The position numbers were made by a program, and so were the translations under genes. From NCBI GenBank assembly GCA_025452255.1, contig CP104974.1, positions 372,001 to 436,000 on the forward strand: a DNA stretch of 64,000 nt. Reading direction: 5' to 3'. Below the pieces are notes generated by a model, which saw only the letters and a list, made by a program, of their open reading frames with translations, did not search any database and was not told the origin of the DNA. The stretch is from Devosia sp. A8/3-2. Lineage in GTDB: Bacteria > Pseudomonadota > Alphaproteobacteria > Rhizobiales > Devosiaceae. Within the stretch, counting starts at the first letter, position 1. Each line of letters begins with the position of its first letter. Below are positions 23,016 through 44,063 of the stretch, one piece after another.

Positions 23016-23843
23016 ATGCCTCTTCATCGTCGCCTGATGGCCACTCTGGTGCTGGGCGCCGCTTTTGCCGCTCCCGCGCATGCGGCAAATTTCGACCTTT
23101 ATGGCGCGGCTCCCGCTGAGCTAGCGCCGATCCAGCCCGAATCCGATTTTATCGTCATCCTCGGCTCAGGCGTCGGCACGGCCGCGGCCTATGAGGGCGC
23201 CTCCGACTATACGATGACGTTCAAGCCCATCATCAAGGTCGAAAAGCTGCAATGGGGCTGGATCGATATCGATGGCGAGAAAAAGCCCGGCGGCTTCAAA
23301 TTCTCGCCCTCGGCCGGCTATGAGGGCGAGCGCCGCAGCAAGGATCATGCCGCCTTGACTGGCCTTGACGATGTGAGCGCCACCTATGCCTTGGGCGCCC
23401 GCATCGGCTATGAATTTGTCTTCGATGACGCGATCTCGGCCGAGATCTATGGCGCGGCGCGCTACGCTTTTGGCGGCGCCAAGGGCTGGGTCGGGGAAGC
23501 TGGTCTCGATGTCACGGCCAAGCTCACTCCGGAGCTCGAAATCGTCGGCGGCCCGGTCGTCAATTTCGCGTCGGAAGGGTACATGGACAGCTATTTCGGC
23601 GCCACCCCAGCCGAATCGGCAGCATCAGGCGGGCGCCTCGAGGCATTCGATCCGGGCGGCGGCATCAAATCGGTGGGGGTCAAGCTTGAGGCCCGCTACG
23701 AATTCGTCCCCGACACCTTTGTCAGCCTCAACGCCTCGTACAGCAGCTATGTCGGGGATATCAGCCAATCGCCCGTGGTCAAGGCAGGCAGTGAGCAGCA
23801 GTTTACCCTCGGGCTAGGCTTGGCGCGGCGCTTCTCGTTCTAG
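23016..23843 (+). CDS. MipA/OmpV-family outer-membrane protein
   Basis: Intact 275-residue beta-barrel protein. Signal peptide: LMATLVLGAAFAAPAHA. The barrel ends in Phe (LGLARRFSF), the outer-membrane insertion signal, and strands alternate polar/hydrophobic throughout (KFSPSAGYEGERRSKDHAAL, ARIGYEFVFDDAISAEIYG). MipA proteins are linked to murein enzymes in E. coli; the function here is not known. GGAG sits 5 nt before ATG 23016. The stop overlaps the convergent SMP-30 gene by 4 nt. Confidence 0.88.
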   Translation: MPLHRRLMATLVLGAAFAAPAHAANFDLYGAAPAELAPIQPESDFIVILGSGVGTAAAYEGASDYTMTFKPIIKVEKLQWGWIDIDGEKKPGGFKFSPSAGYEGERRSKDHAALTGLDDVSATYALGARIGYEFVFDDAISAEIYGAARYAFGGAKGWVGEAGLDVTAKLTPELEIVGGPVVNFASEGYMDSYFGATPAESAASGGRLEAFDPGGGIKSVGVKLEARYEFVPDTFVSLNASYSSYVGDISQSPVVKAGSEQQFTLGLGLARRFSF

Positions 23844-24808
23844 ACTTGCTGCGGAACGCCAAACCGGCAGACCGGCACGCCCGGCACCGCGACGCGGAAT
23901 TGCACCACGCCGTCACTTCCCTCGGTGTCACTGCCTGAATTCAGGCTGGTGACAAAGACCGTGCGCATGTCCGCGCCGCCGAAACAGGGCATGGTGGGGT
24001 GGCCCAGCGGCAGGTCGACCCAGCCGGTCAGCGTGCCATCGGGGGCAATGCGATTGATGCGGCTGCGGCTGGGCGCGGCGGACCAGTAATAGCCATCCAT
24101 ATCGCAGGCGGCCCCATCGGCACGGCCATTGGCCTCGTCCCGGTCGCGCAGGCGGCGGCGATTGGCGACGGCGCCACTGCTGGCGTCGAAATCCCGTGCA
24201 TCCACCCACATCTGCCCGCGTGAATCGGAATGATAAAGCGTGTTCGCCTCCCGGTTCCGAGCCAGCCCATTGGCAATGGTCACCCCGCTCGCCAACACGC
24301 TGACTTCGCCTTCGGGCGTGACGCGATAGAGGCGCCCTTCCGGCTCGCCAGCACTGCCAAAATCCATGCTGCCGACATAAAAGGCGCCGTCCGGCCCTAC
24401 CTTGCCGTCATTGAACCGCATATTGGGCTTGGCATGCTCGACCGCAGCAATCAGCGTCCGCCGCCCGCCTTCGATATCCACCAGCTCGACCGTGCGCCGG
24501 AACGCCACCACCAGTTGGCCGGGGCCGGCCGAGCCAAAACTGCCCACCGGCTCGTCAAAGCGCAGCGCCTGCCGCGTGCCGTCGCCCAGCGAGAGGGCAT
24601 GAATCACCCCCGCTTCGATATCGCACCACCAAAGCCGGTCATGCGCCCCGTCCCAGACAGGGCTTTCCCCCACGCCGAAGCGCTCGCGCACCACAAATGT
24701 CACGGGCCCCGGGGCCAATTGCTCAGTCGCTGTCTCGCTCACCGGCACACTCCCGATTCGGGCGTCATGCCCCACGGCCCTATCTTGCTTCAAGGCCGGA
24801 TTAGTCAT
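23840..24808 (-). CDS. SMP-30/gluconolactonase/LRE-family protein
   Basis: Intact six-bladed beta-propeller of the SMP-30 family, ~322 residues. Conserved sites include GVGESPVWDGAHDRLWWCDI (first metal ligand Glu), KPNMRFNDGKVGPDGAFYVGS (Asn and Asp ligands), ANGLARN and GADMRTVFVTS near the end. Members hydrolyse sugar lactones. It is divergent from a uronate-dehydrogenase-like gene, whose product would be an aldarolactone, so an aldarolactonase role is a fair inference. A GTG at 24742 with GGGAG before it is an alternative start that would remove 22 residues. Confidence 0.88.
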   Translation of the reverse strand: MTNPALKQDRAVGHDARIGSVPVSETATEQLAPGPVTFVVRERFGVGESPVWDGAHDRLWWCDIEAGVIHALSLGDGTRQALRFDEPVGSFGSAGPGQLVVAFRRTVELVDIEGGRRTLIAAVEHAKPNMRFNDGKVGPDGAFYVGSMDFGSAGEPEGRLYRVTPEGEVSVLASGVTIANGLARNREANTLYHSDSRGQMWVDARDFDASSGAVANRRRLRDRDEANGRADGAACDMDGYYWSAAPSRSRINRIAPDGTLTGWVDLPLGHPTMPCFGGADMRTVFVTSLNSGSDTEGSDGVVQFRVAVPGVPVCRFGVPQQV

Positions 24809-24882
24809 ACCAACTTTTGCACCGCTCAATCGGCAATCGTGCCACGCCATCTCATTCCGGCGCGAATAAGGGCTTCGGTTCC

Positions 24883-25662
24883 ATGTCCCGCATCCTGCTC
24901 ACCGGAGCCTCCGGCTATCTGGGAACACAGCTCCGTCAAGCGCTCGTCGCGCAGGGCCATGCCGTGCTGGCCACCGATATGCGCCCCGCGCCCGACGGCG
25001 CACCAATCGAGCTTGCCGACTCGGCCGATGCCGCAGCCATTGACGCGCTGATGAGCCAAAAGCCGGATGCCGTACTGCATCTGGGCGGCATGGCCAATGA
25101 GGGCGATTGGGACCTCATCCTGCACGCCAATATCATGGGCTGCTACAATATTTTCGAAGCCGCCCGCCGCCGCGGCGTACGGCGGGTAATCTATGCCTCG
25201 TCCTATCACGTGGCCGGGTTCTACCCCACAGCACAGGCGCCGCTGCCGGTGGACATGCCCTATCGTCCCGACACGCTTTACGGCGTCTCCAAGGCCTTCG
25301 GGGAGAATCTGGCCCGGTTCTATTTCGACAAATATGGCATTCAGTCGCTGTCGATCCGCATCTGCTCGGCCCACAGGCCGAAGACGCCGCGCGAATCCTG
25401 CAATTGGTGCGATCCCGCCGATCTGGCGCGCATGGTCGGCCGAGCGCTCAGCGTGGACGCGTTGGGCTGCCAGACCCTTTATGGCATATCGGACAATCCC
25501 GGCGCCTTCTTCACCAACCCGCCCGACAATGGGTTGGGCTGGGCGCCCTGTGGCAGCTCGCTCCTGCATGATTTCCCCGATCCGCGTGATCCTGTCGATC
25601 TCGAGGATCCAGCCAATATGTTCCTGGGCGGCGGCATGGCGCGCCGCGCCGTACCGAGATGA
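24883..25662 (+). CDS. NAD-dependent sugar epimerase/dehydrogenase, uronate dehydrogenase-like
   Basis: Intact 259-residue extended short-chain dehydrogenase. NAD site: LLTGASGYLGTQLRQALV; then VLHLGGMANEGDWDLIL, ASSYHVAGFY, and the catalytic YGVSK. Length and the ANIMGCYNIFEAARRRGVRR stretch resemble uronate dehydrogenase (Udh), which oxidises glucuronate or galacturonate to the aldarolactone. The start at 24883 has only a weak AAGGG. It overlaps the LacI gene (25659-25662, ATGA) and is divergent from the lactonase-like gene: regulator, dehydrogenase and lactonase form a plausible uronate module. Confidence 0.82.
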   Translation: MSRILLTGASGYLGTQLRQALVAQGHAVLATDMRPAPDGAPIELADSADAAAIDALMSQKPDAVLHLGGMANEGDWDLILHANIMGCYNIFEAARRRGVRRVIYASSYHVAGFYPTAQAPLPVDMPYRPDTLYGVSKAFGENLARFYFDKYGIQSLSIRICSAHRPKTPRESCNWCDPADLARMVGRALSVDALGCQTLYGISDNPGAFFTNPPDNGLGWAPCGSSLLHDFPDPRDPVDLEDPANMFLGGGMARRAVPR

Positions 25663-26675
25663 AGCCGGTGCAGCACAAGAAAATCGGCTTCAAGGAAATC
25701 GCGCAACAGGCCGATGTGGCCATTTCGACCGTGTCGCATGTGCTCAATGGCACCGCGCCCATCTCCCCCGAGGTCCGCGCCCGTGTGCTCGATGCTGCCG
25801 GGCAATTGGGCTATCTCGCCAAGCGCCGGGAAAAAGCCTCCATCGCCGTGCTGCGATCCATCCTTCTGGCCGTGCCCAGCGATACCCTGCCGCATAATGA
25901 ATTCAATCTCTTCTCCTGGACGCTGCTGAGCACGCTGATGCGCGAATGCGAGCGGCGCGCCATTCGCGTCGTGCCCATGGAAATCGACCGGCCTGATATC
26001 AGCGGCGACAAGATCGTGGCCCAAGCCCGCGCCGCCGAGGTGGATGGCATATTGCTACTGAGCGAAGACCGCCGCGACGTGCTGCACGATATCGCGGCCT
26101 CGGAAATTCCCGCCGTGCTGATCAATGGCGAAGACCATGAAATGCAGATCGACAGCGTCACGCCCGGCAATCGCTTTGCCGCCCGCTACGCCACCAATTG
26201 GCTGATCGAGGAAGGCCACCGCTCGATCCTGCACCTGACCCGGGAAGGCCGCTCGACCATCCGCCGCCGCCGCGACGGCTTCCTCGACGCCTTCCGCGCC
26301 AATGGCCTGTCGCTCGACACCGCCCATGTGCATCTGGCCGAAGGCTATCTGCCCGACCGTGGCGAAGCCGCGCTCACCGCCCGGCTGGCCGAGCATAATG
26401 GCTCGGGCGGGGTGACGGCCATCTTCTGCGCCGCCGACAATCTGGCCCCAGGCGCCCTCGCCGCCCTTTCCAAGGCAGGGCTGACCCCGCCCCACGATGT
26501 CTCCATTGTCGGCTTTGACGGCGTCGCCATCGGCGAATTGACCACGCCCAGCCTCACCACGGTCAGCGTACCGCTCGAACATATGGGCACCGCCGCCCTG
26601 CACCTGCTCGAACAACGCATCGTCAACGCCGCCCAGCATCCCCCGCCCACCGGCTCGAACTGGGCTGCCGGCTGA
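25659..26675 (+). CDS. LacI-family transcriptional regulator
   Basis: Residues 9-60 form the LacI helix-turn-helix and hinge (FKEIAQQADVAISTVSHVLN), the rest a periplasmic-binding-like sensor (TPPHDVSIVGFDGVAIGELT, TTVSVPLEHMGTAALHLL). The visible frame stops at 26675, but a neighbouring frame from ~26637 reads HRLELGCRLTIRNSAATG, the usual LacI end, and would stop at TAG ~26703 after another lost base; so the true C-terminus is probably ~10 residues longer. Co-translated with the uronate dehydrogenase-like gene, its probable target along with the divergent lactonase. Confidence 0.9.
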   Translation: MKPVQHKKIGFKEIAQQADVAISTVSHVLNGTAPISPEVRARVLDAAGQLGYLAKRREKASIAVLRSILLAVPSDTLPHNEFNLFSWTLLSTLMRECERRAIRVVPMEIDRPDISGDKIVAQARAAEVDGILLLSEDRRDVLHDIAASEIPAVLINGEDHEMQIDSVTPGNRFAARYATNWLIEEGHRSILHLTREGRSTIRRRRDGFLDAFRANGLSLDTAHVHLAEGYLPDRGEAALTARLAEHNGSGGVTAIFCAADNLAPGALAALSKAGLTPPHDVSIVGFDGVAIGELTTPSLTTVSVPLEHMGTAALHLLEQRIVNAAQHPPPTGSNWAAG

Positions 26676-26711
26676 CAATTCGTAATAGCGCGGCGACTGG
26701 TTTAGGTCCCC

Positions 26712-27927
26712 TCACTCCTCGCCAAACAGATCCGCCAGCAAATGCCGCCGCGCTGTTTCTGAGCGCCCCGGCCAACCCGGCCCGCGAGCCGGTATTGCTG
26801 GCCACAATCGGCACTGGCCGCTCGAACCGTGCCGCCAGTTCCGCCTGCACGCGTTCGATCAATTCAGGTCGCGCGCCGACGCTGCCGCCCAGCACCACCA
26901 GCTCTGGATCGACCAGCGCAATCAGTGACACGATGCCCGGGGCGACATGTCCTGCCAGTTCATCAATGGTCTGCAGCGCCCGCACATCCCCCGTGGTGGC
27001 GAGGTCGAAAATTGCCCGCACCGACATGTCGGCCGCTCCGCCCCGCCGGGCAAAGGCTTCGCGGATACCGGCCTCGCCGACCATGGTTTCAAAATGCCCC
27101 TGCGCCAGCGAACGCGCCGTGGTGCGATGGTCGGGCAATGGCAGATAGGCGATTTCCCCGGCCCCGCCGGTCGCGCCACGCAGCAGCCGACCATTGACCA
27201 TCAGCCCCGCGCCGACCCCGGTGCCCAAAGCCACAAAGGCGATATCGCGCTTGCCTTGGCCGCTGCCGCTGGCAACTTCCCCCAGCAATGCCAGATTGAC
27301 GTCGTTCTCGATCGAGACCGGGCAATTCAGCGCCTTGGTCAACCTTGCATGCAGGTCGACCGCGACGAGGCCCGGCAGATTGGCGGCGAGATTGAGAATG
27401 CCGGTGGCCGGATTGACCGCGGCCGGCACCCCGACCGTTGCGGCCTGCACGCGGAAGCGCTGCGCGCCGGCGGTCTTGGCCGAGCTATCGGCCAGCTCCA
27501 CCAATTGCCCGACCAGTTGATCGAGCCCGCCCGGGGCGGTCGGCACCACGGTTTCGGCCAGCACCTTGCCGCGCAAATCGACCGGGGCCGCAGCAATCTT
27601 GGTGCCCCCGATATCAAAGCCCAGCGCCAGCGCCGCATCGGGCCGCAGTGCATAGCTCAGGCTCGAACGCCCCGGCAGGCCATTGAGCGGCCCGGCCACC
27701 TGCACCAGCCCGCGCTGTTCCAGCACCGACAGCAATTCGGACACGGCCTGTTTGGAAATCCCGACCCGCTTGGCCAAAGCGGGGCGTTGCAGCGCCCCTG
27801 CCTCGATCAGCACCTCGGCCAATTGGCGCAGCTGGGGCGGCGCCGGATTTGAGGCACGTACCTTGGAAAAATCGGCCGGCTCCGGCCGCTGCTCCCTAGG
27901 CGATTGATTTATCTGCCAATCTTCCAT
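26712..27927 (-). CDS. ROK-family transcriptional regulator (frameshifted at the end)
   Basis: About 405 residues. N-terminal winged helix (residues ~30-85: RPALAKRVGISKQAVSELLS) is joined to a ROK sugar-kinase fold: ATP motif GFDIGGTKIAAAPVDLRG, catalytic region SIENDVNLALLGEV, ALGTGVGAGLMVNGRLLRG and GAGEIAYLPLP. The Cys-rich zinc motif of true ROK kinases and NagC (CxCGxxGC) is missing. An inserted base at 26757-26763 moves the end to ETARRHLLADLFGEE, stopping at 26712. Divergent from the ABC operon starting at 28206, hence its likely repressor. Confidence 0.9.
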
Positions 27928-28205: not shown

Positions 28206-30112
28206 ATGAATTCCAAGAGATGGGTTGCAGCTTTGGCAACCGGCATCCTGTGCACCACCGGGCTGACAAGTCTGGCTCGGGCCTTCCAGGAAGCCCCGAT
28301 GCTGACCGAGCTGGTCGAGGCCGGCAGCCTGCCGCCGGTCGATGAACGCCTGCCCGCCAAGCCAACCGTGGTCAATGCCCTCGAGGTTGGCCAATATGGC
28401 GGCACTGGCGCCGCGCCTTCAGCGGCCCGGGCGATCGCTGGGGCCCCACCAAGCTGATGGAAGAACGCGTCCTCAAATGGACCGCCGACGAAAAGGCGGC
28501 GCCGTGCTGACGCCGGGCTATATCGAGAGCTACCGAGTCAACGAGAATTCCACCGAATTCACCTTCACCCTTTTGGACGGCCTCAAATGGTCTGATGGCG
28601 TGCCGGTGACCACCAAAGACGTTGCCTTCTGGTACAATGACATCTTCCTCAACCGCAAAATCGTGCCCACGCTGGAGCCGACCTTTGCGCCGGGCGGGGT
28701 CCCGCTCGAACTCGAAGTGGTTGATGCGCGCACCTTCAAGGTGAAGTTCGCCCAACCCTATGTCTATTTCCTGCAAATCCCGGCCAAGGATTCCACCGGG
28801 GAGCCGAGTCTGGATCGTCCCAGCTTCCTGTTTCCCAAGCATTACCTGAGCCAGTTCAACAACAACTATGCCAGCGACGAGGAACTGGCGGCAGCGGCCA
28901 AGAAGTTCAACGTCGCCGCCTGGACCGATCTCTGGGGCTCCAAGGGCGCCGCCACCGCTCGGTGGTCCAATCCCGAGCTGCCGGTGATCACCGCCCGGAA
29001 GATCGAAACGCCACCGCCGGCCGATACGGTCGTTATGGTGCGCAATCCCTATTATTACGCCGTCGATCAGGCGGGCAACCAGCTCCCCTATATCGACCGC
29101 ATCGAACACCGCCTCTATCAGGATCCCGAAACGCTCAACCTGATGATCGCCCGGGGCCAGCTCGACATGCAGGATCGCGGACTGACCCTCACCAATTTCA
29201 CCTTCTACAAGGAAAACGAGACGCGCGGCGGCTATCACACGGTCAATTGGAAGGACACCAATATCTGGTCGCTGGTGCCCAACATGACCGTCAAGGATGA
29301 GGTGCTGGCCGCCCTGTTCGCCGAAGAGAAAGTGCGCGAAGCCTTCTCGATCGCGGTCGATCGCGAGCTGATCATCGAATTGACCCAGTCGGGCATGGCC
29401 CAGCCGATCCAGTGCGGCGCCGGTGACCGGCACGCAATACTATAATGAAGAGCTGTCCACTCATTGGACCGAATACGATCCGGACTCGGCCAATCAATTG
29501 CTCGACGAAGCAGGCCTTGACCAACGCGACGCCCGGGGCTTCCGCCTGCGTCCCGATGGCAAGCGCTTTAGCCCGGTGGTCGAAACCAGCGACGCCGCCC
29601 ATGCCAAGACGCTGGAGCTGCTGACTGAAAACTATGCCCGTGTGGGCATTGAAATGCTGCCCCGCGTTATCGACCGCACCCAGTGGGACAATAACCGGGC
29701 CAATAACGACTTCCAGATGCACTGGATTCCGTTCGACCGCATGACCTTTCTGCCCGCCGATCCGCGCCGCCTGATGGGCTGGGACGGCTATGGCAACGAA
29801 TATTTCAAATGGTACAGCACGGACGGCGCCGAAGGCATCGAGCCGCCCGCCGACGATCCGGTCCGCGAGATCTGGGCCCTCTGGGACAAGGCCTCCCAAT
29901 CAGCCTCGATCGAGGAAGCCGATGTCTCGGTCAACGAAATGGCGCGCATCTTTACCGAACAGGGTTGGGTAATCGGCGTCTATGGCGAAGGCCCGGTGGT
30001 CAATATCGTGGGCAATACCATGGAAAACGTGCAGCCCGATCTGGTGCAGGACGACATTTTCCGCGGCATTGGCCCGGCTCGCACCCAGCAGTTCTGGCTC
30101 AAGCAGCCCTGA
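28206..30112 (+). CDS. ABC transporter substrate-binding protein, family 5, large type (frameshifted)
   Basis: About 635 residues over breaks at 28401-28407 (CACTGG where CACCTGG gives GGTWRRAFSG) and near 29412. Signal peptide: MNSKRWVAALATGILCTTG then LTSLARA. Family 5 (oligopeptide/dipeptide-type) features: GLKWSDGVPVTTKDVAFWYN, FKVKFAQPYVYFLQI, EEKVREAFSIAVDRELII. It is longer than DppA/OppA (~530) and resembles the large family 5 proteins that accompany carbohydrate loci in Hyphomicrobiales. First gene of a five-gene importer; two strong hairpins separate it from the permeases. Confidence 0.88.
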
Positions 30113-30122
30113 TAGACGCAAA

Positions 30123-30189
30123 GGCGCGCGGAGCCCCGGCCCCGCGCGCCATCTCGGCCCCACGGCCCGGACTCCAAGCCGGGCCGTGG
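30123..30189 (+). ncRNA. Two consecutive GC-rich RNA hairpins inside the operon
   Basis: Hairpin 1: GGCGCGCGG at 30123-30131 pairs with CCGCGCGCC at 30142-30150. Hairpin 2: CCACGGCCCGG at 30160-30170 pairs with CCGGGCCGTGG at 30179-30189 (8-nt loop). No U-run follows, so these are not intrinsic terminators; hairpins at this place commonly protect the upstream binding-protein message or lower downstream expression. Confidence 0.6.
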
Positions 30190-30217
30190 CGCGCCGGCAA
30201 GGGGAGAGAACTGCAGT

Positions 30218-31203
30218 ATGATTGCCTTTATCGGGCGGCGTGCGCTTCTGGCGATACCGACGCTGATCTTTATCTCGTTCATATCCTTCGTGATCATCCA
30301 GCTGCCGCCGGGCGATTACGTCACCTCCTACGCGGCCCAGCTGCGCCAACAGGGCGACTATATCTCCATCGCCCAGGAAGCGATCATGCGGCAGAATATG
30401 GGGCTCAACGACCCCATATTGGTGCAGTACTGGCGCTGGATTTCCAACATCGTGTTCCGCGGCGATTTCGGCCATTCGCTGGAATGGAACGCCCCGGTGG
30501 GCAGCCTGATCTGGGACCGGTTGGCGCTCACCCTCGCTATCTCCTCGCTCAGCTCGGTCTTTACCGGATCATCGCCATTCCGGTCGGCGTCTATTCCGCC
30601 ACAAGGCAATATTCCATTCTCGACCACCTCTTCACCGTTTTCGATTTTCTGGGCAAAGGCATTCCCGATTTCCTGCTCGCACTGATCCTGATGTGGATCG
30701 GCTTCATGTATCTGCAGATCGATGTGGGCGGGCTATTCTCCCCGCAATATCAGAACGCCCCCCGGAGCTGGGATAAGGTCGTGAACCTGCTCTCGCATTT
30801 GTGGATTCCGCTGGTCGTGCTGGCGACGGGCGGCGCGGCAGGCCTCATCCGCGTCATGCGCGCCAATATGCTCGATGAATTGGGCAAGCCCTATGTCGAG
30901 ACCGCCTATGCGCAGGGCCTCAGTGAACGCCGGGTGGTGTGGAATTACCCCGTGCGCGTCGCGCTCAATCCCTTCATCTCCACGGTCGGCTGGTCGCTGC
31001 CGGCCCTGTTCTCGGGCGACGTGATTACCGCTGTCGTGCTCAACCTGCCCACCACCGGCCCATTGTTGCTGCAGGCGCTCAAAATGCAGGACATGTATCT
31101 GGCGGGCAGCTTCATCCTCATCCTCAGCGTCTTTACCGTGATCGGCACGCTGGTCTCCGATATCCTGCTGGCGTGGTTCGACCCGCGCATCCGCTACGCG
31201 TGA
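30218..31203 (+). CDS. ABC transporter permease, DppB/OppB type (frameshifted)
   Basis: About 328 residues, six membrane helices. Opens MIAFIGRRALLAIPTLIFIS, continues FRGDFGHSLEWNAPVGSL and ends with SLPALFSGDVITAVVLNLPT. The EAA-type coupling loop is ETAYAQGLSERRVVWNYPVR. Break at 30564-30567: CCGG where CCTGG would give FTWIIAIPVG. Partners with the next gene. Confidence 0.9.
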
Positions 31204-31214
31204 GGAGTGCTCCC

Positions 31215-32343
31215 GTGACCGATTCCGCCCTTGAAACCCCCAAAATCCACGACCACAAGGAAGACCTGTTTACCGCCAAGCCGTGGCAATTGGTGTGGCG
31301 CCGCTTTTCCAAGCATTTGCTCGCCGTCATCTCGCTGTGGTTCCTGATCCTGCTGGCGCTGACCGCCATCTTTGCCGATCAGGTGGCGCCCTATGACCCG
31401 TTCAAGGTGCAGCGCCTGCGCACGCTGGCACCGCCCACGGGCATTCACCTCTTCCATGAAGGCCAGTTCGTCGGCCCCTTCGTCTATGGCCTGTCGCGCG
31501 AACGCGACGTCAATACCGCCCGCGTGCTCTACGAAACCGACCCGGAAAAAGTGTTGCCGATCCAGCTTTTCTACCGGGGTGACGACTACAATTTCTTCGG
31601 CCTGTTCAAGTCCAATATCCACCTGTTCGGCGTCGATGACCGGCGCGAGCAGATCAACCTGCTCGGCACCGATGATCTGGGGCGCGACGTCTTCTCCCGC
31701 CTCATGCATGGCGGCCGCGTGACGCTCTCCGCAGGCTTGATCGGGGTGGTCTTTGCCTTTGTGCTCGGCCTCACCCCGGGCTCGATCTCGGGCTATTTCG
31801 GCGGCTGGATCGATAGCGCCATCCAGCGCCTGATGGAGTTCATCCGCTCCATCCCCACCATCCCGCTCTGGATGGGTCTGGCCGCCGCCCTGCCCATCGC
31901 CCGGGACCCGATCTTTGTCTATGTGCTGATCACGCTGATCCCGGCGCTGATCGGCTGGACCCATCTGGCGCGTGTGGTGCGCGGCCAATTCATGGCCATC
32001 CGCAACGAGGATTTCGTGATGGCGGCCCGCCCGGCCGGCGCTTCGGAATACCGCATCATCACCAAGCATATGCTGCCCTCGATGACCTCCTATATCATCG
32101 TGGCGCTGACCCCGGCCGTGCCTGAAATGATCCTGGGCGAAACCGCGCTCAGCTTCCTCGGCCTCGGGCCTGCGTCCCCCCGTCGTCAGCTGGGGCGTGC
32201 TGCTGCAGGATGCCCAGAACCTGCGCTCGATCTCGATGGCGCCCCGGCTGCTTTCGCCGGGCCCGGCGGTGGTGCTCACCGTGCTGGCCTTCAATTTCCT
32301 CGGCGATGGCCTGCGCGACGCGGCCGATCCTTATGGGCAATAG
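31215..32343 (+). CDS. ABC transporter permease, DppC/OppC type with long periplasmic insertion (frameshifted)
   Basis: About 376 residues. After the first helix (residues ~35-55) comes an extra ~100-residue segment ([40 protein letters not shown]) before the family motif [19 protein letters not shown]. The coupling loop is [18 protein letters not shown]. The end, [20 protein letters not shown] then [17 protein letters not shown]-like [13 protein letters not shown], lies in another frame after an extra G near 32168. GTG start with AGGAG 8 nt before. Confidence 0.88.
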
Positions 32344-32347
32344 CATC

Positions 32348-34436
<2,089 letters not shown>

Positions 34437-34461
34437 CAGTCTGCTAACCAAACTGGGTCCT

Positions 34462-36928
34462 ATGTCAAAACCGCTTCTCATTCTCAACCGTGGCGAAAGC
34501 CTTGCCGCCTGGGCCCTGTCGCCGGTCATCGCCACGCCCTTCCCCGGCATTGCCGCCCCTGCCGAGGACAGACAAAACTACAAATATATCAATGGTTTCG
34601 TCGATGTGGGCGACCTGCCCTGCCGCGTCGCCACCGGCGCGACGTCGCCACACGAAATGTCGCGCTCGACACAAGCTGGGCCGTCGAAAGCCTCTATTTG
34701 CCCGGTTCCAATCGCCGCGTCGAATTTAGCCAATTCCGCTCCACGCCAACACGTTTGGCCCGCTGGTGCCGCACAAATCTGGGCGCTCCGGTCGACCGCT
34801 ATTGCTCCTTCCGCCTCTCGACGCGGGGGTGTGCATATCTGGGTCGATGGCGAATTAGCTGCGCGTTTTGAACCCTTTACCCGCAATTCCACCGAGCAAA
34901 GCGTCGTCCATCTGCCCATCAAGGCAGCTGGCAGCGACGTGGTCGTTTTGACCGAGGACATGGCCGAGCGCGACACCAATTGGTTCTTCGAACTCACCCT
35001 GCTCGATGATGTGCCGCTCGCCGTCTTCCTGCCCGGCGCCCCCGCCGATGCGCATCTCGACACGCTCAAGGCCCTCGCCGCCGAAGTCCGCCCGGCCGGC
35101 GAATATACCGGCCCCAGCGATCCCCCGGTGCTCGAATTCGACACGCCGGCAAGCCTATCCGTCGCCATCCACGCCAAGGTCGGCTCGACCTCGCATGCCA
35201 AGCACACCATGCTCGACCGCATAGTGACGCTGAAGGCGGGCGAGACAAAAGTCACCCTCTGCCGCGGCGACGAATTGCCGGACGGCTATCATATTATCGA
35301 CCTCACCTTCGTCGTCGACGACACCCGTGTCGCCCGCCAGATCGCCTGCGCTGTGATCTATGATATTGCCCCCCAACCGCGCCATGCCGACATTGCCGAA
35401 CGCAAGCGCGAAGCCCTGTTGCACAGCGCCGTGGAAGGCGAGATGCGCATGGGCACGGCCCCGGCCATGCTGGCGGCGGGCCTTGAGCCCGACCAGCGTT
35501 TCCACGACATTATCGAGGAAACCCTGACCATTATCGAGCAGCGCTGGGACTGCGCTGATTTCGTCAGCGTGCCCCTGCTCTGGGCCTATGCCCGTCACGC
35601 CGCCCAATTCCCGCCAGACCTGCGCCTCCGCACCGAAACGGCTTTGCTCACCTTCCGCTATTGGGTGGATGAGCCGGGCAATGACGTCATGTGGTTCTGG
35701 AGCGAGAACCATGCTCTGTGCTTCCACGTCTCCCAGCTCATGGCCGGGCAGACCTTCCCCGACAGCCTGTTCACTGCCGCAAACCGTAACGGAAGCGAAC
35801 AAGCCCGCCTCGCCGCCGAACGGCTGCATTTGTGGTTGGACGCGGTCGAAGCCGAGGGCTCGGCCGAATGGAATTCGTCGGCCTATTACCCCGTCGATTT
35901 CATTGGTCTTTTGGCCTTGGTCGAATTCGCCCCTGCCGATATCGCCACACGCGCCCGCCGCGTCACCGACCGCATCTTCACCATGATAGCGCTGCACACC
36001 CTTGGCGGCGTGCCCGCCGGCAGCATGGGCCGCGCCTATGACAAGGAATTGCGCGCCGGCCCGCAGACCGAACTCGCCCCTTTCGCCACCGTCGCCTTCG
36101 GCAAAGGCTGGCTCAACCAGTAGCGTCGCCTCGCTCCCGCTCTTTGCCGCCGGCAGCTATCTGCCGCCGCCCGAACTGGGTGAACTTGCGTGGCCCGAGC
36201 CGGGCAGCGCCGTCACTGCCCATTACACCCGGGGCCATGACCACGCCGCCCATCTCAGCCTCTTCAAAACTCCTGCCGTGCAGCTCTCGAGCAATGCCGG
36301 GGCCAAGCCGGGCGGCTATGGCCATCAGCAACATGTCGTGGACATACTATTCTCCGCCCACCCGCTCGCCCGGAGCTGGATCAACCACCCGGGCGAAGAC
36401 GACCCCCGGGGCAGCCAGCGCCCCTCCTATTGGGCCGGCAATGGCGTACTGCCGCGCGCCGCGCAGCACGACAATGTCGCCCTGCTGCTCTACGACACGG
36501 GCAGCACTCCGCGCCTCGATTTCACCCACGCCTATATCTCGCAGGCGGGCGTCGAAGCCCACCTCATAGACGGCGCCCTAATCCTGCGTTCGGGCAATGG
36601 GCTGCTCGCCTACAAAGCCACCGCGCCTCTGCAATTGGTCACCAAAGGCCCCAGCGCCGGTCGCGAATACCGCTGTTATGGCAAGGTGATGGGCTGGATG
36701 GCCCCGGTCGCCGAGGGCGACGACATCAACGCCTTCGGCCGCCGCATTGCCGGGCTCGACCTCAGCCTCGACGGCCGCCACCTGACGCTGACGGGCCTGC
36801 CCAGCGGCACGATCGAACTGGACTGGAGCAATGGGCTATCGGCGGACGGCAAAGCCGTAGCACACCCCAATATGAGCATCGAACCGCTGATCCAGCGGCG
36901 CAGGCTGAGCGAGACAATGGCGGGGTAA
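34462..36928 (+). CDS. Large protein of unknown function, possible carbohydrate-active enzyme (frameshifted)
   Basis: I do not recognise this family. Joined from several frames (out near 34635, back near 34826, and again near 36118) it has ~820 residues and no signal peptide. Residues ~100-210 look like a beta-sandwich (GVHIWVDGELAARFEPFTRN, VVVLTEDMAERDTNWFFELT). Residues ~330-550 are helical with an Asn-His pair in WFWSENHALCFHVSQLMAG and GSMGRAYDKELR, reminiscent of (alpha/alpha) toroids of polysaccharide lyases. The last ~270 residues are again beta-rich (RPSYWAGNGVLPRAAQHDN). It follows the five-gene importer by 25 nt, so it probably acts on the imported compound in the cytoplasm. The enzyme idea is an inference from fold-like features. 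Confidence 0.7.
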
Positions 36929-36944
36929 GGCCGCAATCGGGGCT

Positions 36945-37407
36945 CTACTTCGGCCCCGGATCCATCAACACATGGATCCGATCCGCCCCCAGCCGCGCGA
37001 GTTTCAGCATCAGCGCCTTGCGCCGTGCCGGGGACATGGGCGTATCGGGACTGTCCCGCAATATCGCCCCGTCATGCCCATCGGCCACGATCAGCCCCTC
37101 GCTCTGCGGGAAAATCCCCGCATCCAGTTCCGGCGGCTTGGCAAAGAAAAACCGGTCGGAGAACTCGCGATATTCGTGCCATTTCTTGTCGACTCGGAAA
37201 TCGAGCAGGCCTCGACTTGATCTCGACGATCCAGATTTCACCCTTGGGCCCCACGCCCAGCACATCAGCCCGCCTGCCGCTGCGCAAGGTCACCTCGGCA
37301 TAGCAGGCCATGTCATAGGTTTCGCGCAATAGCCGCATCACCCCGCGCTGCACGCGCAGCGCGGTGGCCGATTGGCGCAGGTCAACGATTGGACCCAACT
37401 CAGCCAT
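36945..37407 (-). CDS. mmcB: MmcB family DNA repair protein (frameshifted)
   Basis: About 154 residues. The restriction-nuclease-like core is visible: MACYAEVTLRSGRRADVLGV then GEIWIVEIKSS and KKWHEYREFSDRFFFAKPPE, a PD-(D/E)xK arrangement with D, ExK and a following K. MmcB of Caulobacter is an SOS-induced putative mutagenic/repair nuclease. A break near 37205-37215 separates the halves. Its start overlaps the upstream MFS gene by 8 nt. Confidence 0.88.
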
Positions 37408-38593
37408 GCGGCGGCACGGGCTCGGGCGGCAGGCCATGCGGATCTTCCACCTTGCGCGGGCCCAGCGCGAAGCTGGCCGCCCATAGCCCCGCCACCAGCA
37501 GCGGCAGGCAGATCAGGTAGGAATTGCGGATGCCCAGATATTCGGCAACGAAGCCCAGCAGCGGCGGCGCGAGGAAGAACACCACAAAGCTCACCTGTCC
37601 GAGCGCCGCCACATTGACTGCCGCCGGCCGGTCGGTACGCTGTGCCGCCGCCGAGACGGCCAGCGGATAGACGGCCGAACAACCAATACCCATCAGCGAG
37701 AAGCCGGCCAATGCAATCCGAGTCTGGGGCGCCAGCCCCACCATCAGCACGCCCAATGCCGCCAGCACCAGCAGCACCATGGCCACATTGCGTGGCCCAT
37801 AGCGGGCCACGACCGGATCGGCGGTGAGCCGCATCGTCGCCATGAAGAAGGCAAACAGGGTCAGCCCCATGCCGCCCACGAAAGGCTGGGCCGAAAACAC
37901 GTCACGCATATAGATGGCCGACCAGTCAATGCCCGCCCCTTCGACGAGGAAGGCGGCAAAGCCGATAATGCAGAGCGGCACCGAGCCCCAATTGGGAAAG
38001 GCGATGCGGTGCGCGCCGGCATCGTGGCTTTGCCCCTTGGGCTTGGGCGCCGGCACCATGCCGAAAAACATGTAGCCGCCCACCAGCACGACGATCACCG
38101 CAATGATCCCCATATGCCATTGGGCGCTGAGCCCGGATTGGCGGATCATGGCGCCGAACAGCGCCGTGACGAAGAAGCCGACGCTCCAAAAACCATGCGC
38201 GCAGTTCATGTAGCGCTTGCCGCTGGCCGTTTCTGAGCCGGTCGGTCTCGACATTGAGATTGATTTCGAGCGCCCCGGACAAGAGTCCGGTAAAGAACAT
38301 CACGACGAACACCGCCGGCGCCACCGGCAGCCGGGGATCAGCGCAAAGAGCAATGACGGCCCCAGCACGGTAACGAAGGCCGTCATGCGCGGCCCCACCT
38401 TTTCGATCAGCGGGGACGCAAAGGTCAGCGAAATTAGCGAGCCGAGCGACATGCCGATCATGGTCAGGCCCAGCTGGCTTTCGGTAACGCCCAGATGGGT
38501 CTGGATATCGGGCAGGCGCGCCATCAGGGCGCCGGTGGTTATGGCAAACAGGAAAAAGCCCGCATAGATGCGGTATTGTGGCGCGATAATCAT
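37400..38593 (-). CDS. MFS transporter, paralogue B (frameshifted)
   Basis: About 397 residues, 12 membrane helices, breaks near 38335 and at 38231-38237 (inserted base in CTCGAAACGG). Opens MIIAPQYRIYAGFFLFAITT and shares long stretches with the neighbouring MFS gene: LMARLPDIQTHLGVTESQLG, EGAGIDWSAIYMRDVFSAQP and SAAAQRTDRPAAVNVAALGQ. These are typical of the YbjJ-like MFS subfamily. It overlaps its paralogue by ATGA and mmcB by 8 nt. Substrate unknown. Confidence 0.87.
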
Positions 38594-39761
38594 GGGGTCA
38601 CAGTCGATCTGATGGGTTTGGCGCCGAGGGCACTGGCAGCGAACAGGCTCAACGCGACGAGCGGCAACCCGATGCCAAAGGCCCAGCGAATGCCGAAATG
38701 CTCGGCGATATAGCCCAGCAGCGGCGGTCCCAGCAGGAATGACACAAAGGAAATCTGCGCCAGCGCCGCCACATTGACGGCTGCCGGCCGGTCGGTGCGC
38801 TGCGCTGCCGCCGACATGGCGAGCGGGAAGATGGCGCTGGTGCCCACCCCCATCAGCGCCGAGCCCAGATAAGCGGCCCATTGCGCAGAGGTGAAAAGAC
38901 CAGCAGCGTGCCGATGCCCAGAATGGTCAATAGGCTCCGCGCGACGATGACCGGGCTCCAGCGCTCGACGAAACTATCGGCGAAAAACCGCGTCACCGCC
39001 TGCGCGCCGGCGCCCAAAGCCACGGCAAAGCCGGCCCAGAACAGGGCGGCGCCGAACACGTCGCGCATATAGATGGCCGACCAATCGATACCGGCGCCCT
39101 CCATGATCATGGCCGACAGGCACACCGTCACCAGCACCGGGATGGCCAGCGTCGGTCGGGCAAAGCGGGGCGCCGCGTCAGTGCTGCCGCCGCTGCGATG
39201 TTCGGCGGGCTGAAACCGGCCCAGGATGAGCAGGGTGGCAATGGTGACGACGGGTACCATGATGGCCAGATGCAGCTGGGCAGAAAGACCGCTCTGGGCG
39301 ATGAAGGCGCCCACCATGCCGGCACTGAAAAAGCCGAAGCTCCAGAAGGCATGCGAGCGGTTCATGATGCGGCGGCCAATGGCGTGCTCGACCCGGTCGG
39401 CCTCAAGATTGATGATGATCTCGATGGCGCCGATGGTTATGCCCACCGGCATCAGCAACAGGAAGAGCGTCAACGGCGTTTGCGCCCAGACGGCAATGGC
39501 GTAAAATACCGCCAAGAGCGGCAGCGCCGTCAGCAGCGTGCGGCGATAGCCGACGCGTTCGATGATCGGGCTGGCAAAGGTCAGCGAGATCAGCGTGCCC
39601 AAGGCCGCCCCGATCAGCGCAAACCCGAGCGCGCCTTCGCCCACGCCCATGGCAAGCTGGATATCGGGCAGGCGGGGATACAGGCTCCCCATGCAAAATG
39701 AATAAACAAAGAACGCCCCATAGACCTTGATCTGGGGCGGCAGCTCAATGCCGAATCTCAT
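38590..39761 (-). CDS. MFS transporter, paralogue A (frameshifted)
   Basis: About 390 residues with 12 membrane helices and one break near 38885. Opens MRFGIELPPQIKVYGAFFVY, has YPRLPDIQLAMGVGEGALGF and the shared EGAGIDWSAIYMRDVFGAAL and SAAAQRTDRPAAVNVAALAQ. It is the first gene of a two-paralogue unit. No Shine-Dalgarno sequence is evident at 39761. Divergence between the two copies (same motifs, different loops) suggests an old duplication. Confidence 0.87.
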
Positions 39762-39842
39762 AATAAAAGCTACTCGCAAACAGAAGCGAGGCGCACGCTA
39801 GTCCATTTCGCCGAGGAGTAAAATAGGGCCTGCAAGCGCTTT

Positions 39843-39868
39843 AGTTACATTATTATATCGTTGCAACT
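39843..39868 (-). promoter_or_regulatory. Imperfect palindrome AGTTACA-N12-TGCAACT before the MFS pair
   Basis: Six of seven arm bases pair; it lies ~80 bp upstream of the MFS unit and just past the end of the LysR gene, in the most A+T-rich part of this gap. Possible operator only. Confidence 0.3.
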
Positions 39869-39894
39869 GCATCACAGCGCCGCCGCAGCGCTGC

Positions 39895-40764
39895 CTAATG
39901 TCCCGGCCGCTCACCCCGGAACAGCGGCCCGTGCGCGCCCATCAGCTTGCCGATACGATCGGCCACGGCGCACGGCCGGGGCATGGCGTTCCTCATGATG
40001 GCTGACCAGCCATTGGTCGGTTTCGAGTTCGGCGATCAGCGGCGCCACGCGGATGAGCACTGGAATCGCTATCGCCCACAAAACACGGAAAGACCGACAG
40101 CCCGGCCCCCGCCGCCACCAATTCGCGCACGCTCATCGAATCATTGCCGCGCACGGCGATGCGGTCACCATGGCGCGCCTGCATCCAGCGGGCCGATTGG
40201 GTCTGGGCGCCATCGCCGGCAATGCCGACGAAATATCCGGCGGCAATGCCATTGACCGAGTTGAGGCCCGAATAAAGGCCATAGGCCACCTTGCCGATCA
40301 GCCGCCCGGCCAGCCATTGCTCGGAGGGGCGCTGGTTGCAGAATACCCAGATCGGCATTGCGCCGGCCGATATCGACCTTCTCATTGGCGGTGACCAGTT
40401 CGAGCCCGAAGCGATCCTCCACGCTCCACAGCGTTCCGATGTGCCGGGCGAGAAAGGCCGAGGTCCAGGCGCCAGCCGAGACCCGCACCACCCGCTCGCC
40501 GATCGCGCCTTCCTTCCAGCGCTTGAGCGAGAGCATCGCCGTCTCGACCTCCTCGGCGCGGGCCAGCAGCGCCTCGCCGGCCGGGGTCAGCCGATAGCCG
40601 GTCTGGGAGCGAGCAAACAGCGGCTCGCCCAATTGGCGTTCAAGCGCGGTAATGCGGCGGCCCAAAGTGGCCGCACTCAGGCCCGTCGTGGCGGTAGCCG
40701 CGCTCAGCCCGCCCAGCCGCGCCACGTCCAGAAACAGCCTCAGATCGTCCCAGCTGAAATCCAT
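39895..40764 (-). CDS. LysR-family transcriptional regulator (frameshifted)
   Basis: About 289 residues over at least two breaks (near 40345 and 40075, possibly one near 39985). The helix-turn-helix is intact: FSWDDLRLFLDVARLGGLSA, GLSAATLGRRITALERQLGE, PLFARSQTGYRLT. The effector domain is short and reads RNDSMSVRELVAAGAGLSVF in the middle, typical of the LysR members that regulate single enzymes or efflux. It is upstream of, and co-oriented with, the MFS pair. Confidence 0.85.
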
Positions 40765-40941
40765 TTTTCATTTCTGCAAAGCGTCTTGCGTTCTTGAGCA
40801 TAGCGGCAGGGCGCGGATGTGCGCAAGTATGGCTGCAACGGTACCGCGATAGGCGCCGAACGGAAATCAATACGGCCAAATCTGCAAAGCCGACAGCTGC
40901 GCTGCCGGCCATGGGTTCGGCTTGCCGCAAGGAATATTGCA

Positions 40942-41094
40942 ATGCTGCACACCCTGTTCCGCTGGGTCCGGGCCGTTCGGCAGGACCACCTCGCCCTGCG
41001 CATCCTGCGGAGCATGGATGACCGCCAGTTCGCCGATCTGGGGGCCAGCCGCGACTGCCTCGCCGATTTTGTCCGCAATCACGCCAATCATTGA
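40942..41094 (+). CDS. Small DUF1127-like protein
   Basis: 50 residues: an amphipathic basic helix (LFRWVRAVRQDHLALRIL) followed by RSMDDRQFADLGASRDCLA, the DUF1127 core in which L..L.D..L.DIGI.R is conserved. Such small Arg-rich proteins influence RNA turnover and phosphate or stress responses in Agrobacterium and Rhodobacter. AAGGA lies 9 nt before the ATG. It is 16 nt upstream of an aldo/keto reductase and probably transcribed with it. Confidence 0.75.
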   Translation: MLHTLFRWVRAVRQDHLALRILRSMDDRQFADLGASRDCLADFVRNHANH

Positions 41095-41110
41095 CCCCAA
41101 GGAACCCATC

Positions 41111-42119
41111 ATGACCTTTTCCAAATTCCGCTCCATCGGCCGCTCCGGCATTGAGGCCAGTGCCATCGGCATGGGCTGCTGGGCCATTGGCGGCCCTTTC
41201 CTGCTCAATGGCAAACCCGATGGTTGGGGCGATATCGATGATGCCCAATCGGTTCGCGCCATCCATCTGGCGCTCGAGCTGGGCGCCACCCTGTTCGACA
41301 GCGCCGATGCCTATGGCACGGGCCACAGCGAAACCGTGCTCGGCCGGGCCTTGGCCGGACGCCGCAGCGACGCCGTCATCGCCACCAAGTTCGGCTATAC
41401 CTATGATCCCGGGGCCAAGGCGCTGCTCGCCACCGATGTGAGCCCGGCCTATGTGCAATGGGCCTGCACCCAATCGCTGGCGCGGCTGGGTACCGATTAT
41501 ATCGATCTGCTGCAGATCCATGTCGGCGATCTGCCGGACGACGCCGCCGACGCCGCCGGCGAGGCGCTGGAAAAGCTCGTCGAGAGCGGCCAGATTCGCG
41601 CCCGGGGCTGGAGCACCGACAATGCCGCCGCGGCCGCCCGCATGGTCAAATTCCCCCATTTTACCGCCGTGCAGCAGGAATTGAGCGTGTTCAAGGACGG
41701 GCCCGACATGCTCGATCTCTGCGCCAAGCAAAACTCGGCCAGCCTCAACCGTTCACCGCTGGCCATGGGCATGCTGACCGGCAAATTCACCGCCGCCTCG
41801 GTGCTGCCAAGCTCGGATGTGCGCGGCGCCGGACACGAATGGGTGCGCTTTTTCAAAGACGGCAAGCCACTGCCCGAGGCCCCGGCCCGGATCGAGGCCA
41901 TCCGTGAGCTGCTGACCAGCGGCGGGCGCAGCCCGGCACAAGGCGCCCTGGGCTGGATCCTGGCTCGCTCGCCGCATACCCTCCCCATTCCCGGCTTTAA
42001 ATCGGAAGCCCAGGTGCGCGACAATCTGGGTGCCCCTGGACAAGGGTCCGCTTACCGCCGCCACCATGGCCGAGATCGCCGCTATTCTGGATGAGCTGGC
42101 CGAGCCGGCCCTCGCCTGA
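41111..42119 (+). CDS. Aldo/keto reductase (frameshifted at the end)
   Basis: About 335 residues. Catalytic tetrad: Asp and Tyr in LFDSADAYGTGHSE, Lys in VIATKFGYTY, His in IDLLQIHVGDLP. Cofactor-binding region: TLPIPGFKSEAQVRDNLGAL. An extra C at the CCTGG near 42034 shifts the last ~25 residues, which in the next frame read TAATMAEIAAILDELAEPAL. Broad AKR, substrate unknown; next to a second AKR, possibly a pair acting on one sugar or aldehyde. Confidence 0.88.
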
Positions 42120-42140
42120 TCCCAAAACCGGAGAACCGCA

Positions 42141-43119
42141 ATGCAACAGAATCTATTGGGCCCATTCGGACCGGTTAGCCGCCTCACCCCGGGCGGTGGC
42201 GGCATCGGCATGGTCTGGGGCCCGGCCTCGGAAGAAGACGCCATCGGCACCCTGCACCGCGCCGTCGAGGCGGGCATCGATCTCATCGACACCGCCCCCG
42301 GCTACAAGACCTGCGAGGCGATGGTCGCCAAGGCCTTTGAGGGTCGCATCCCCCGGGGCGTGCGCATCACCACCAAATATGGCTTGGGCAATCCGCCCGC
42401 CGGCGAAGCCTATCCCCGGCTGCGCGCTTCGCTTGAGGCCAGCCTTGCCGCCATGCGCCTCGAACGCGCCGACATGATGCTGCTGCATACCGAAATCCGG
42501 CCCGACGATTTCGTCTATCCCAATAATGACCGGCCGCGCGACAGAACGCTCCACCAGCCTCAGCCTTTATCGCGAGGCCGTTGTTCCCGCCTTCGAGCGC
42601 CCGGTCGCCGAGGGGCTGATCGCGAGCTGGGGCATTACCGGCTTCAACCATACCGGCGCGACTATCGACGCCATTTCCGTCGGTCCCCGCCCCGCCGCTT
42701 TGCAGGCCATCGCCAACCTCATGGATAGCGCCGGGGAAATGAACGGCACCGGCACGCCCGGCCGGCCCCGCGATATCATCGCCGCTGCCAAGGCCAATGG
42801 GGTTGGGGTCATGGGCGTGCGCGCCGTGCAGGCCGGTGCGCTGACCGCAGGCCTTGACCGCACGATCACCGAGGACCAGCGCGCCACCGGTAATGACTTC
42901 GATCGCGCCGCTCCCTATCGCGCGCTTTGCCGGCAATGGGGCGACGACCCCGCCATCATCGCCCATCGCTATGCCTTGGGCCCGGACGGCGTCGACACAC
43001 TGGTGCTGGGCGTCAAAACCGTCGCCGAACTGGAACAGGCGCTTGCGGCGGAGCGAGCCGGCCCGCTAGAGCCCGACCGAGTCGCGGCCATCGACGCGCT
43101 CGGCCTGCGCTCGACATAA
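42141..43119 (+). CDS. Aldo/keto reductase (frameshifted)
   Basis: About 325 residues. Catalytic residues: Asp and Tyr in DLIDTAPGYKTCEAMV, Lys in RITTKYGLGNPP, His in MMLLHTEIRP. Phosphate-binding end: VDTLVLGVKTVAELEQAL. One break at 42541-42543 (an A inserted in CGACGAACG). It lies 21 nt after the preceding AKR. A strong terminator follows the stop. Confidence 0.86.
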
Positions 43120-43120
43120 A

Positions 43121-43153
43121 AAAACGGGCCGCTCCAACCGGGCGGCCCGTTTT
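43121..43153. terminator. Bidirectional rho-independent terminator
   Basis: AAAACGGGCCGC (43121-43132) pairs with GCGGCCCGTTTT (43142-43153), 9-nt loop; T-run on one side and A-run on the other, so it serves both convergent units (AKR and rlpA-like gene). Confidence 0.92.
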
Positions 43154-43173
43154 CACAGTCAATTATGTCTTGT

Positions 43174-43964: not shown

Positions 43965-44063
43965 GTCATTCCGGCGGAGGCCGGAATCCATGTCCGTGGT
44001 GCCCCGCACCCATCTAATGCTGGGATGACCTTCCGCATGGATTCCGGCCTCCGCCGGAATGAC
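43965..44063. repeat. Inverted repeat, 28-bp perfect arms (VIPAEAGIH-type palindromic element)
   Basis: Arms 43965-43992 and 44036-44063 are perfect reverse complements around a 43-bp centre. Each arm contains TTCCGGC-GGAG-GCCGGAA, itself a palindrome. Such dispersed elements occur between genes in many alpha- and betaproteobacteria. Confidence 0.88.

Follow-up and report, generated by a model that had tools for sequence, protein, structure and literature searches.

The DNA considered here, called the window, is a stretch of 64,000 nucleotides from Devosia sp. A8/3-2, and the gene of interest lies directly downstream of a five-gene importer of the Opp type, which consists of an SBP_bac_5 solute-binding protein, two BPD_transp_1 permeases and two oligo_HPY ATPases. 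There is good support for regarding the gene product, named here the toroid protein, as representing a candidate new polysaccharide lyase (PL) family, whose reaction would be elimination on uronate oligosaccharides. The coding sequence begins with an ATG 25 bp after the end of the last importer open reading frame at 34436 (Table 1). The first-pass annotation had described an unrecognised protein in this place, and both parts of the description hold: the gene has an intact frame of 840 codons in a genome of the same genus (G006, loci L010 and L104), and the protein has no significant match in searches of Pfam, NCBIfam and the PDB sequences.

Reading frame and sequence searches

In the window itself the gene is not a single frame. 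Approximately positions 34650-34835 are read in another frame, there is a stop near 36121, and a profile search of the window genome recovered the gene as three pieces and found no second copy. The intact protein of G006 is 90% identical over a middle part of 432 amino acids. In a comparison with locus L104, all eight genes compared (the toroid gene and seven others, span 24896-44581) carry frame-changing gaps and none carries an in-frame gap. These gaps number 29, with gaps in overlapping gene spans entered once per gene, and 11 of them fall in the toroid gene. The completeness of the window assembly is 84%. We read the frame breaks as probable sequencing or assembly indels, not as the mark of a specific pseudogene; the pseudogene reading was dropped because the same kind of gap occurs in all eight genes. 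Gene fragments elsewhere in this indel-rich window are to be read accordingly.

For the pieces of the window protein, neither Pfam (E ≤ 1) nor NCBIfam (E ≤ 5) yields a matching family. When 18 sequences (16 relatives and two window pieces) were searched against Pfam, only scattered weak matches were obtained, the best being Pentapeptide_3 at 0.0043 in one sequence; three sequences matched, at 0.08, a galactose-binding domain of beta-galactosidase. The heparinase II/III-like family PF07940 is absent among the matches of these sequences at E ≤ 1. A 32-row profile (A3) found no PDB sequence at E ≤ 10, in a sequence set whose lyase entries were seen to be present for PL17 (Alg17c and AlgL17 were matched by one PL17 protein), and another search of PDB sequences gave one unrelated chain at 0.2. 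Against the PDB sequences there is thus no significant similarity to the lyase families with a solved member (such as PL8, 12, 15, 17, 21, 23, 33, 35, 39 and 40). A sequence relation to glycoside hydrolase (GH) family GH154 or to BcGDH was likewise not seen, with 0 PDB sequences at E ≤ 10 in a set in which 9nwf and 8oi4 were not confirmed. Profile alignment by hhalign gave a probability of about 0.1% both with four PF07940 proteins and with ten PL17 proteins, and a PL8 profile had no match over its cut-off in 299 genomes. The titles and abstract openings among the literature matches listed do not name the family, nor do passages of PMC12838403 and PMC13260240. As judged from the sequences, no family is detectable by Pfam, NCBIfam, PDB sequences or hhalign.

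Predicted fold and conserved residues

The protein chosen for modelling is the homologue from Chelativorans (L096), which was folded with 32 aligned sequences and is 56% and 49% identical to two pieces of the window protein. The full model has a predicted local distance difference test score (pLDDT) of 83.9 and a predicted TM-score (pTM) of 0.85. Its residues 7-183 correspond to the sandwich by which GH2 enzymes bind sugars (beta-glucuronidase 6b6l: Z 9.9, root-mean-square deviation (rmsd) 3.0, 122 residues aligned), while residues 307-810 match toroid lyases. In a whole-model Foldseek search the GH2 enzymes stand on top with TM of about 0.13, matched through the N-terminal sandwich; the C-terminal part was then folded by itself. 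This model of 521 residues (pLDDT 83.8, pTM 0.86) is an alpha/alpha toroid with an antiparallel beta-sheet. The beta-sandwich, helical part and beta-rich C-terminus that had been noticed in the sequence are seen in both predicted models. A toroid followed by an antiparallel beta-sheet is the arrangement that defines the fold class of PL8, 12, 15, 17, 21, 33, 35 and 39, and it is the arrangement found in the predicted model.

All eight Foldseek matches of the C-terminal model at E ≤ 0.001 are lyases, namely two chains of PL35, three of PL15, two of PL17 and one of PL39, in agreement with the toroid-lyase architecture proposed earlier. Among the 50 rows shown by VIA for the same model, 47 are toroid lyases and three are glucuronate dehydratase or GH154 chains, which match the toroid only; the best is the PL35 chain 8khw (Z 11.4, rmsd 5.2, 398 aligned) and rank 50 has Z 7.9. 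A remark accompanying the VIA output puts the values for models that lack a clear match at typically 7-8 and 4-5. No sequence relation was found to the particular lyase families that had been named earlier.

Membership of GH2 was rejected, as a helical toroid and a beta-sheet stand in the model where a GH2 enzyme would have its barrel. GH2 beta-glucuronidases are built from a sugar-binding sandwich, an immunoglobulin-like domain and a TIM barrel. A glycoside hydrolase or phosphorylase of the type with an (alpha/alpha)-barrel and a beta-sandwich, removing uronate or mannose, would be consistent with the glucuronidase-like residues 7-183, with the GH2 enzymes at the top of the whole-model search and with the many glycosidase neighbours. 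It is considered improbable, since the catalytic part matches lyases and the toroids of GH63 and GH65 appear only at E ≥ 0.01 with a Foldseek probability of 0.1-0.2. It would also leave the pairing with GH88 described below unexplained, because GH88 and GH105 are reported in PMC8511951 to require unsaturated ends.

It is useful to compare the toroid protein, as a candidate lyase, with the closest known systems. The best structural matches are the PL35 GAGases (8khw, 8khv), and BcPL35 of Bacteroides caccae also works with a GH88 enzyme (PMC12269599). There is no sequence match to PL35, however, and according to PMC12088678 the PL35 enzymes are two-domain glycosaminoglycan lyases, of which GAGase II has a signal peptide, whereas the toroid protein has three parts and a start that is not signal-peptide-like. 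The PL17 oligo-alginate lyase Alg17c (4nei, 4ok4) has the same toroid and beta-sheet fold (VIA: Z 10.7, rmsd 5.2, 423 aligned), and as listed in PMC12088678 it has an adjacent Asn and His, a catalytic Tyr 57 residues after the Asn and a His in the beta-domain. It differs in the lack of any sequence relation and in acting on alginate, while the substrates of the toroid protein would be linked to GH88; moreover, the match with Alg17c starts at model residue 307, so that the N-terminal sandwiches have no counterpart there. The PL15 enzymes (alginate lyase Atu3025 and exo-heparinase) match the C-terminal model with Foldseek values between 3e-6 and 3e-5, and 6ljl matches the whole model with 2.5e-9. 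They too have a part before the toroid, which begins at Gly127 (PMC12088678), but no sequence match, and exo-action is recorded for PL15 and only guessed for the toroid protein.

Three alignments were used for the conserved residues: A3 with 31 rows carrying letters (of 32), A4 with 17 rows, and A8 with 11 diverse rows that include Catenovulum, Subdoligranulum and Haladaptatus. In the numbering of the Chelativorans model, residues N416, H417, Y475, R524 and Y526 are invariant in A3 and A4, and in all 11 rows of A8 these five are invariant together with Q622, H642, W657 and H688. The Asn-His pair to which the first-pass annotation had drawn attention is thus kept in a set that reaches an archaeon. 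In the toroid protein the distance from the pair to the Tyr is 58-59 residues, and from the Tyr to the His of the beta-domain 167 residues. From the catalytic residues listed in Table 4 of PMC12088678 we calculated distances from neutraliser to Tyr of 52-58 in PL12, 15, 17, 21, 35 and 39, 59 in the PL8 chondroitin AC lyase, and 63 in the PL8 ABC lyase II and in PL23; the set N238, Y291 and H444 given for PL33 in PMC11848413 has a Tyr spacing within 52-58. Calculated in the same way from these two sources, the His outside PL8 and PL23 follows the Tyr by 130-166 residues. Ten PL17 proteins aligned here have these residues in the same order and conserve HNH and Tyr without exception.

Gene neighbourhoods and distribution of the relatives

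The importer of the window is preceded by genes for LacI- and ROK-type regulators, a uronate dehydrogenase-like protein and an SMP-30-type lactonase (Table 1). Directly downstream, and convergent with the toroid gene, is a gene for an MmcB-like DNA repair protein (36945-37437, minus strand); genes for the ATPase of a manganese/iron ABC (ATP-binding cassette) importer and a ZnuA-type binding protein (14364-16129, minus strand) are unrelated to the toroid gene.

Table 1. Features of the window and parts of the toroid gene (residue numbers are those of the Chelativorans model, L096)
Feature	Position	Strand	Remarks
SMP-30/gluconolactonase-like lactonase	23840..24850	-	
Uronate dehydrogenase-like gene	24817..25662	+	Best PDB matches 6mfh, 3ay3, 3rft
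LacI-type regulator	25659..26675	+	
ROK-type regulator	26623..27927	-	
Solute-binding protein SBP_bac_5	28342..30112	+	Pfam; frame broken
Importer permease 1 (BPD_transp_1)	30218..31203	+	Frame broken
Importer permease 2 (OppC_N, BPD_transp_1)	31200..32351	+	Start approximate
Importer ATPase 1 (ABC_tran, oligo_HPY)	32394..33392	+	
Importer ATPase 2 (oligo_HPY)	33380..34436	+	Frame broken; start approximate
Toroid protein, candidate uronate-oligosaccharide lyase	34462..36928	+	Frame broken here; intact in same-genus genome G006
N-terminal beta-sandwich part	34462..35380	+	About residues 1-300; boundaries approximate
Alpha/alpha toroid part	35381..36200	+	About residues 305-576; boundaries approximate
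Asn-His pair of SENH (N416-H417)	35707..35712	+	Proposed carboxylate neutraliser; 31/31 A3, 17/17 A4, 11/11 A8
Tyr of EWNSxxYY (Y475)	35884..35886	+	Invariant; proposed catalytic acid/base
Arg and Tyr of GRxY (R524, Y526)	36031..36039	+	Invariant
C-terminal antiparallel beta-sheet part	36201..36928	+	About residues 580-823; boundaries approximate
His of NHPGE (H642), beta part	36386..36388	+	Proposed base or Tyr activator; 29/31 A3, 16/17 A4, 11/11 A8

Relatives of the toroid gene were found by tblastn in 200 plasmid records at E ≤ 1e-5, of which 123 are Rhizobium, and in 532 stretches of a genome scan at E ≤ 1e-3, mostly from Rhizobiales. The 80 best-scoring of these 532 stretches, which from their record titles we take to be Rhizobiales, were kept as loci for counting neighbours, and matches covering at least half of the query were counted. 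In 77 of the 80 loci the toroid gene is followed immediately downstream by the gene for the unsaturated-uronyl hydrolase GH88, with 64-99% identity to a reference. Of the remaining loci, L087 breaks off within the toroid protein, L097 continues for just 0.5 kb beyond it, and in L096 no GH88 gene lies within 10 kb. GH28 was found in 74 loci and KduI in eight; of eight KduD matches, five at 65-67% are clear and three at 34-39% are probably other short-chain dehydrogenases. The count for UgpC (78) includes four matches below 45% and was not used as evidence.

More telling than this count is that the contexts vary, with four transporter types around a constant GH88 partner, because the 80 loci are mostly from close Rhizobiaceae and are not independent, which lowers the weight of the count as support for a lyase. 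The order GH88, kduI, toroid gene, CUT1 importer and kduD occurs in two Shinella, in Gemmobacter and in Phyllobacterium. In Salipiger and Pseudosulfitobacter, kduI and the toroid gene are accompanied by a TRAP importer, with GH88 a few kb away; in Roseibium and Oryzibacter the toroid gene and GH88 occur with an Opp-type importer, in Catenovulum with an MFS transporter, and in Subdoligranulum as a pair. No other lyase is annotated near the toroid gene in nine annotated stretches of relatives. The uronate context suggested earlier is therefore seen in the dehydrogenase-like and lactonase genes beside the window gene, in GH88 beside the relatives and in KduI/KduD in several of them.

One could also imagine a C5-epimerase for uronyl residues built on this fold, as human dermatan sulfate epimerase (DSE; 6hzn) is a match of the full model, with Z 9.5, rmsd 5.8 and 441 residues aligned, and is described in PMC11848413 as sharing its catalytic apparatus with these lyases. 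The toroid genes sit in catabolic clusters of importers, GH88, KduI and KduD, however, where an epimerase would have no evident use, and this possibility is regarded as very remote.

The protein is annotated as hypothetical in all ten annotated stretches that were opened; three further records of relatives carried no annotation. It occurs in 30 of 75 genomes of the window's genus, including the window genome, and in at least one of 385 genomes drawn across the class, namely the window's own, with two candidates scored per genome. Distant relatives were found in the gammaproteobacterium Catenovulum adriaticum, the clostridium Subdoligranulum variabile and the haloarchaeon Haladaptatus, whose homologue of 661 amino acids lacks the N-terminal part. 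Haloarchaeal degraders of glycosaminoglycans use PL8, GH88 and GH154 according to PMC13260240, passages of which do not mention Haladaptatus. A gene for a heparinase II/III family protein of 1305 amino acids (L153:65-3982) lies some 8 kb away from the homologue in Haladaptatus and stands among many Gfo/Idh/MocA oxidoreductases. In Subdoligranulum, a frame of 939 codons with an MGH1-like/GH63-like domain (L156:11582-14398) lies between two GH88 genes of the same cluster. The records of Rhizobium rhizoryzae (L003) and Ciceribacter thiooxidans (L009) each have two places that match the toroid protein, the second place in R. rhizoryzae being 51% identical to the Salipiger type; such pairs of matching sequences suggest two substrate branches.

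GH38 alpha-mannosidases are found in 65 of the 75 genomes of the window's genus. Where the toroid protein is present, a GH38 gene lies within 5 kb of it in 10 of the 30 genomes (0.15 expected if the genes were placed at random in a genome of 4 Mb). GH38 also occurs alongside GH88 in the loci of Roseibium, Oryzibacter and Subdoligranulum. The GH38 gene beside the toroid gene in genus loci L105, L108 and L110-L113 is apart from a more general GH38 found elsewhere in most genomes, and genes of HAD-like and weakly PHP-like type are frequent companions of GH38 and the toroid gene in the genus. Proteins of PF04962 (KduI) were present in all eight genus genomes tested. The family PF04962 also includes IolB.

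Proposed function and significance

From the computed fold class, residue conservation, gene association and absence of a detectable sequence family, we infer a reaction, residue roles, exo-action, a cytoplasmic location and a class of substrate. The function that we favour, and consider probable, is that of a cytoplasmic lyase with a toroid and a beta-sheet, acting by elimination on imported uronic-acid oligosaccharides. The cytoplasmic location is proposed because the N-termini of all 11 proteins inspected, also by hydropathy, were judged not to be signal-peptide-like; the highest N-terminal hydropathy maxima, 1.78-1.84 with that of the window protein included, are slightly lower than the 1.98-2.79 of five binding-protein controls.

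In the proposed mechanism, the importer would bring a uronic-acid oligosaccharide into the cell, to be bound in the cleft that separates the toroid from the beta-sheet. There Asn416 and His417 could neutralise the uronate carboxylate, and Tyr475, helped by His642 in the role of base or activator, would take the C5 proton and protonate the leaving 4-O sugar. This elimination would yield a delta-4,5-unsaturated uronyl residue, which GH88, the next gene in most relatives examined, may then release for KduI and KduD. The enzyme may be exo-acting, with one end of the groove closed off by the GH2-like N-terminal sandwiches.

The principal rival is an oligosaccharide dehydratase, which would eliminate water from a saturated uronate in the non-reducing terminal position, giving the delta-4,5 residue and leaving the glycosidic bond uncut. 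The described dehydratases P29_PDnc, which acts on ulvan (PMC8511951), and BcGDH, formerly GH154 (PMC12269599), both work with GH88 or GH105, which they feed, and without a signal-peptide-like N-terminus the toroid protein would meet short imported sugars. Structural matches to the toroid part include dehydratase/GH154 chains (9nwf, Z 9.1; 8oi4, Z 9.0; 9o4u, Z 8.8). However, these matches are restricted to the toroid, with 224-235 residues aligned by VIA against 360-435 for lyases, and the toroid protein does possess the beta-sheet domain and its His. Other catalytic residues are also proposed for the dehydratases in PMC8511951 and PMC12269599; those of BcGDH are two Tyr and an Arg (PMC12269599), whereas the toroid protein conserves a lyase-like Asn-His, Tyr and His, although an invariant Arg and a second Tyr exist in it too. 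A dehydratase is therefore considered rather unlikely.

Several observations weigh against a lyase acting ahead of GH88. The adjacency of GH88 would suit a dehydratase equally well. Chelativorans L096, the modelled homologue, is without GH88 in its 10 kb, and the GH88 references were unmatched in the 25.7-kb stretch of Haladaptatus. The window's own genus is mostly without GH88/105: matches over the cut-off occur in 6 of the 75 genomes, and matches at E ≤ 0.001 in 28, the remainder being sub-threshold partial matches, with that of the window genome among them. Because only 3 of the 30 genomes with the toroid protein have GH88/105 over the cut-off, the fate of the product is unexplained in the genus members that lack it. 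In 20 of these 30 genomes a GH38 gene lies within 25 kb of the toroid protein, where 0.77 would be expected under the same random placement; the window genome is outside these 20, its nearest GH38 being 841 kb away. The proposed His642 is Asn in 2 of the 31 rows of A3, and its distance from the Tyr is one residue past the published range. The TM-scores of the eight Foldseek matches are modest (0.37-0.45) and the VIA rmsd values are about 5-7 Å, so that the fold class of the model is clear but its closeness to one lyase family is not. Finally, pLDDT falls below 50 in the active-site loops (model residues 405-407, 409-411, 468-475, 521-532 and 647-659), which are the worst-predicted parts, so that a meeting of the proposed residues in the cleft, as in the lyases of this fold class, is tentative.

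With regard to the substrate of the favoured lyase, it is helpful to consider xanthan. Xanthan loci unite a PL8 lyase, GH88 and GH38 (PMC12827396, where an intracellular PL8 is also proposed in Paenibacillus), the same trio as in the toroid-gene loci of Roseibium, Oryzibacter and Subdoligranulum if the toroid protein is counted as the lyase or lyase-like member, although the toroid protein has no sequence match to a solved PL8. Two xanthan degraders have a lyase and GH38 with no recognised GH88 (PMC12772297), and diatom glucuronomannan is a second substrate option (PMC6298971). Given the GH38 neighbours and the xanthan loci that combine lyase, GH88 and GH38, our best guess for the GH38-associated members is a mannose-uronate substrate resembling a xanthan side chain or glucuronomannan. 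For the rhizobial members beside GH28, the best guess is a galacturonate-containing substrate.

The earlier interpretation is supported overall. A lyase-fold enzyme is in itself ordinary; what is new is the absence of a detected sequence family in the Pfam, NCBIfam and PDB searches and the unusual N-terminal build. In its broader form, to which we give about an even chance, the proposal is an undescribed lyase family with a three-part build of GH2-like sandwiches, toroid and beta-sheet in Bacteria and a shorter core in Archaea, which would serve as the hitherto missing cytoplasmic eliminase of GH88 pathways in rhizobia, agrobacteria, roseobacters and some clostridia. Its substrates would then fall into two or more branches, among them one on the GH28 side and one on the GH38 side. 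The toroid gene is carried by hundreds of genomes, many of them of root-nodule bacteria. If the protein is a lyase, many operons of rhizobia, agrobacteria and marine bacteria could be assigned to a pathway of import, elimination, GH88 and KduI/KduD, and a cytoplasmic branch without detectable sequence relatives would be added to a fold studied mainly in degraders of glycosaminoglycans and alginate.

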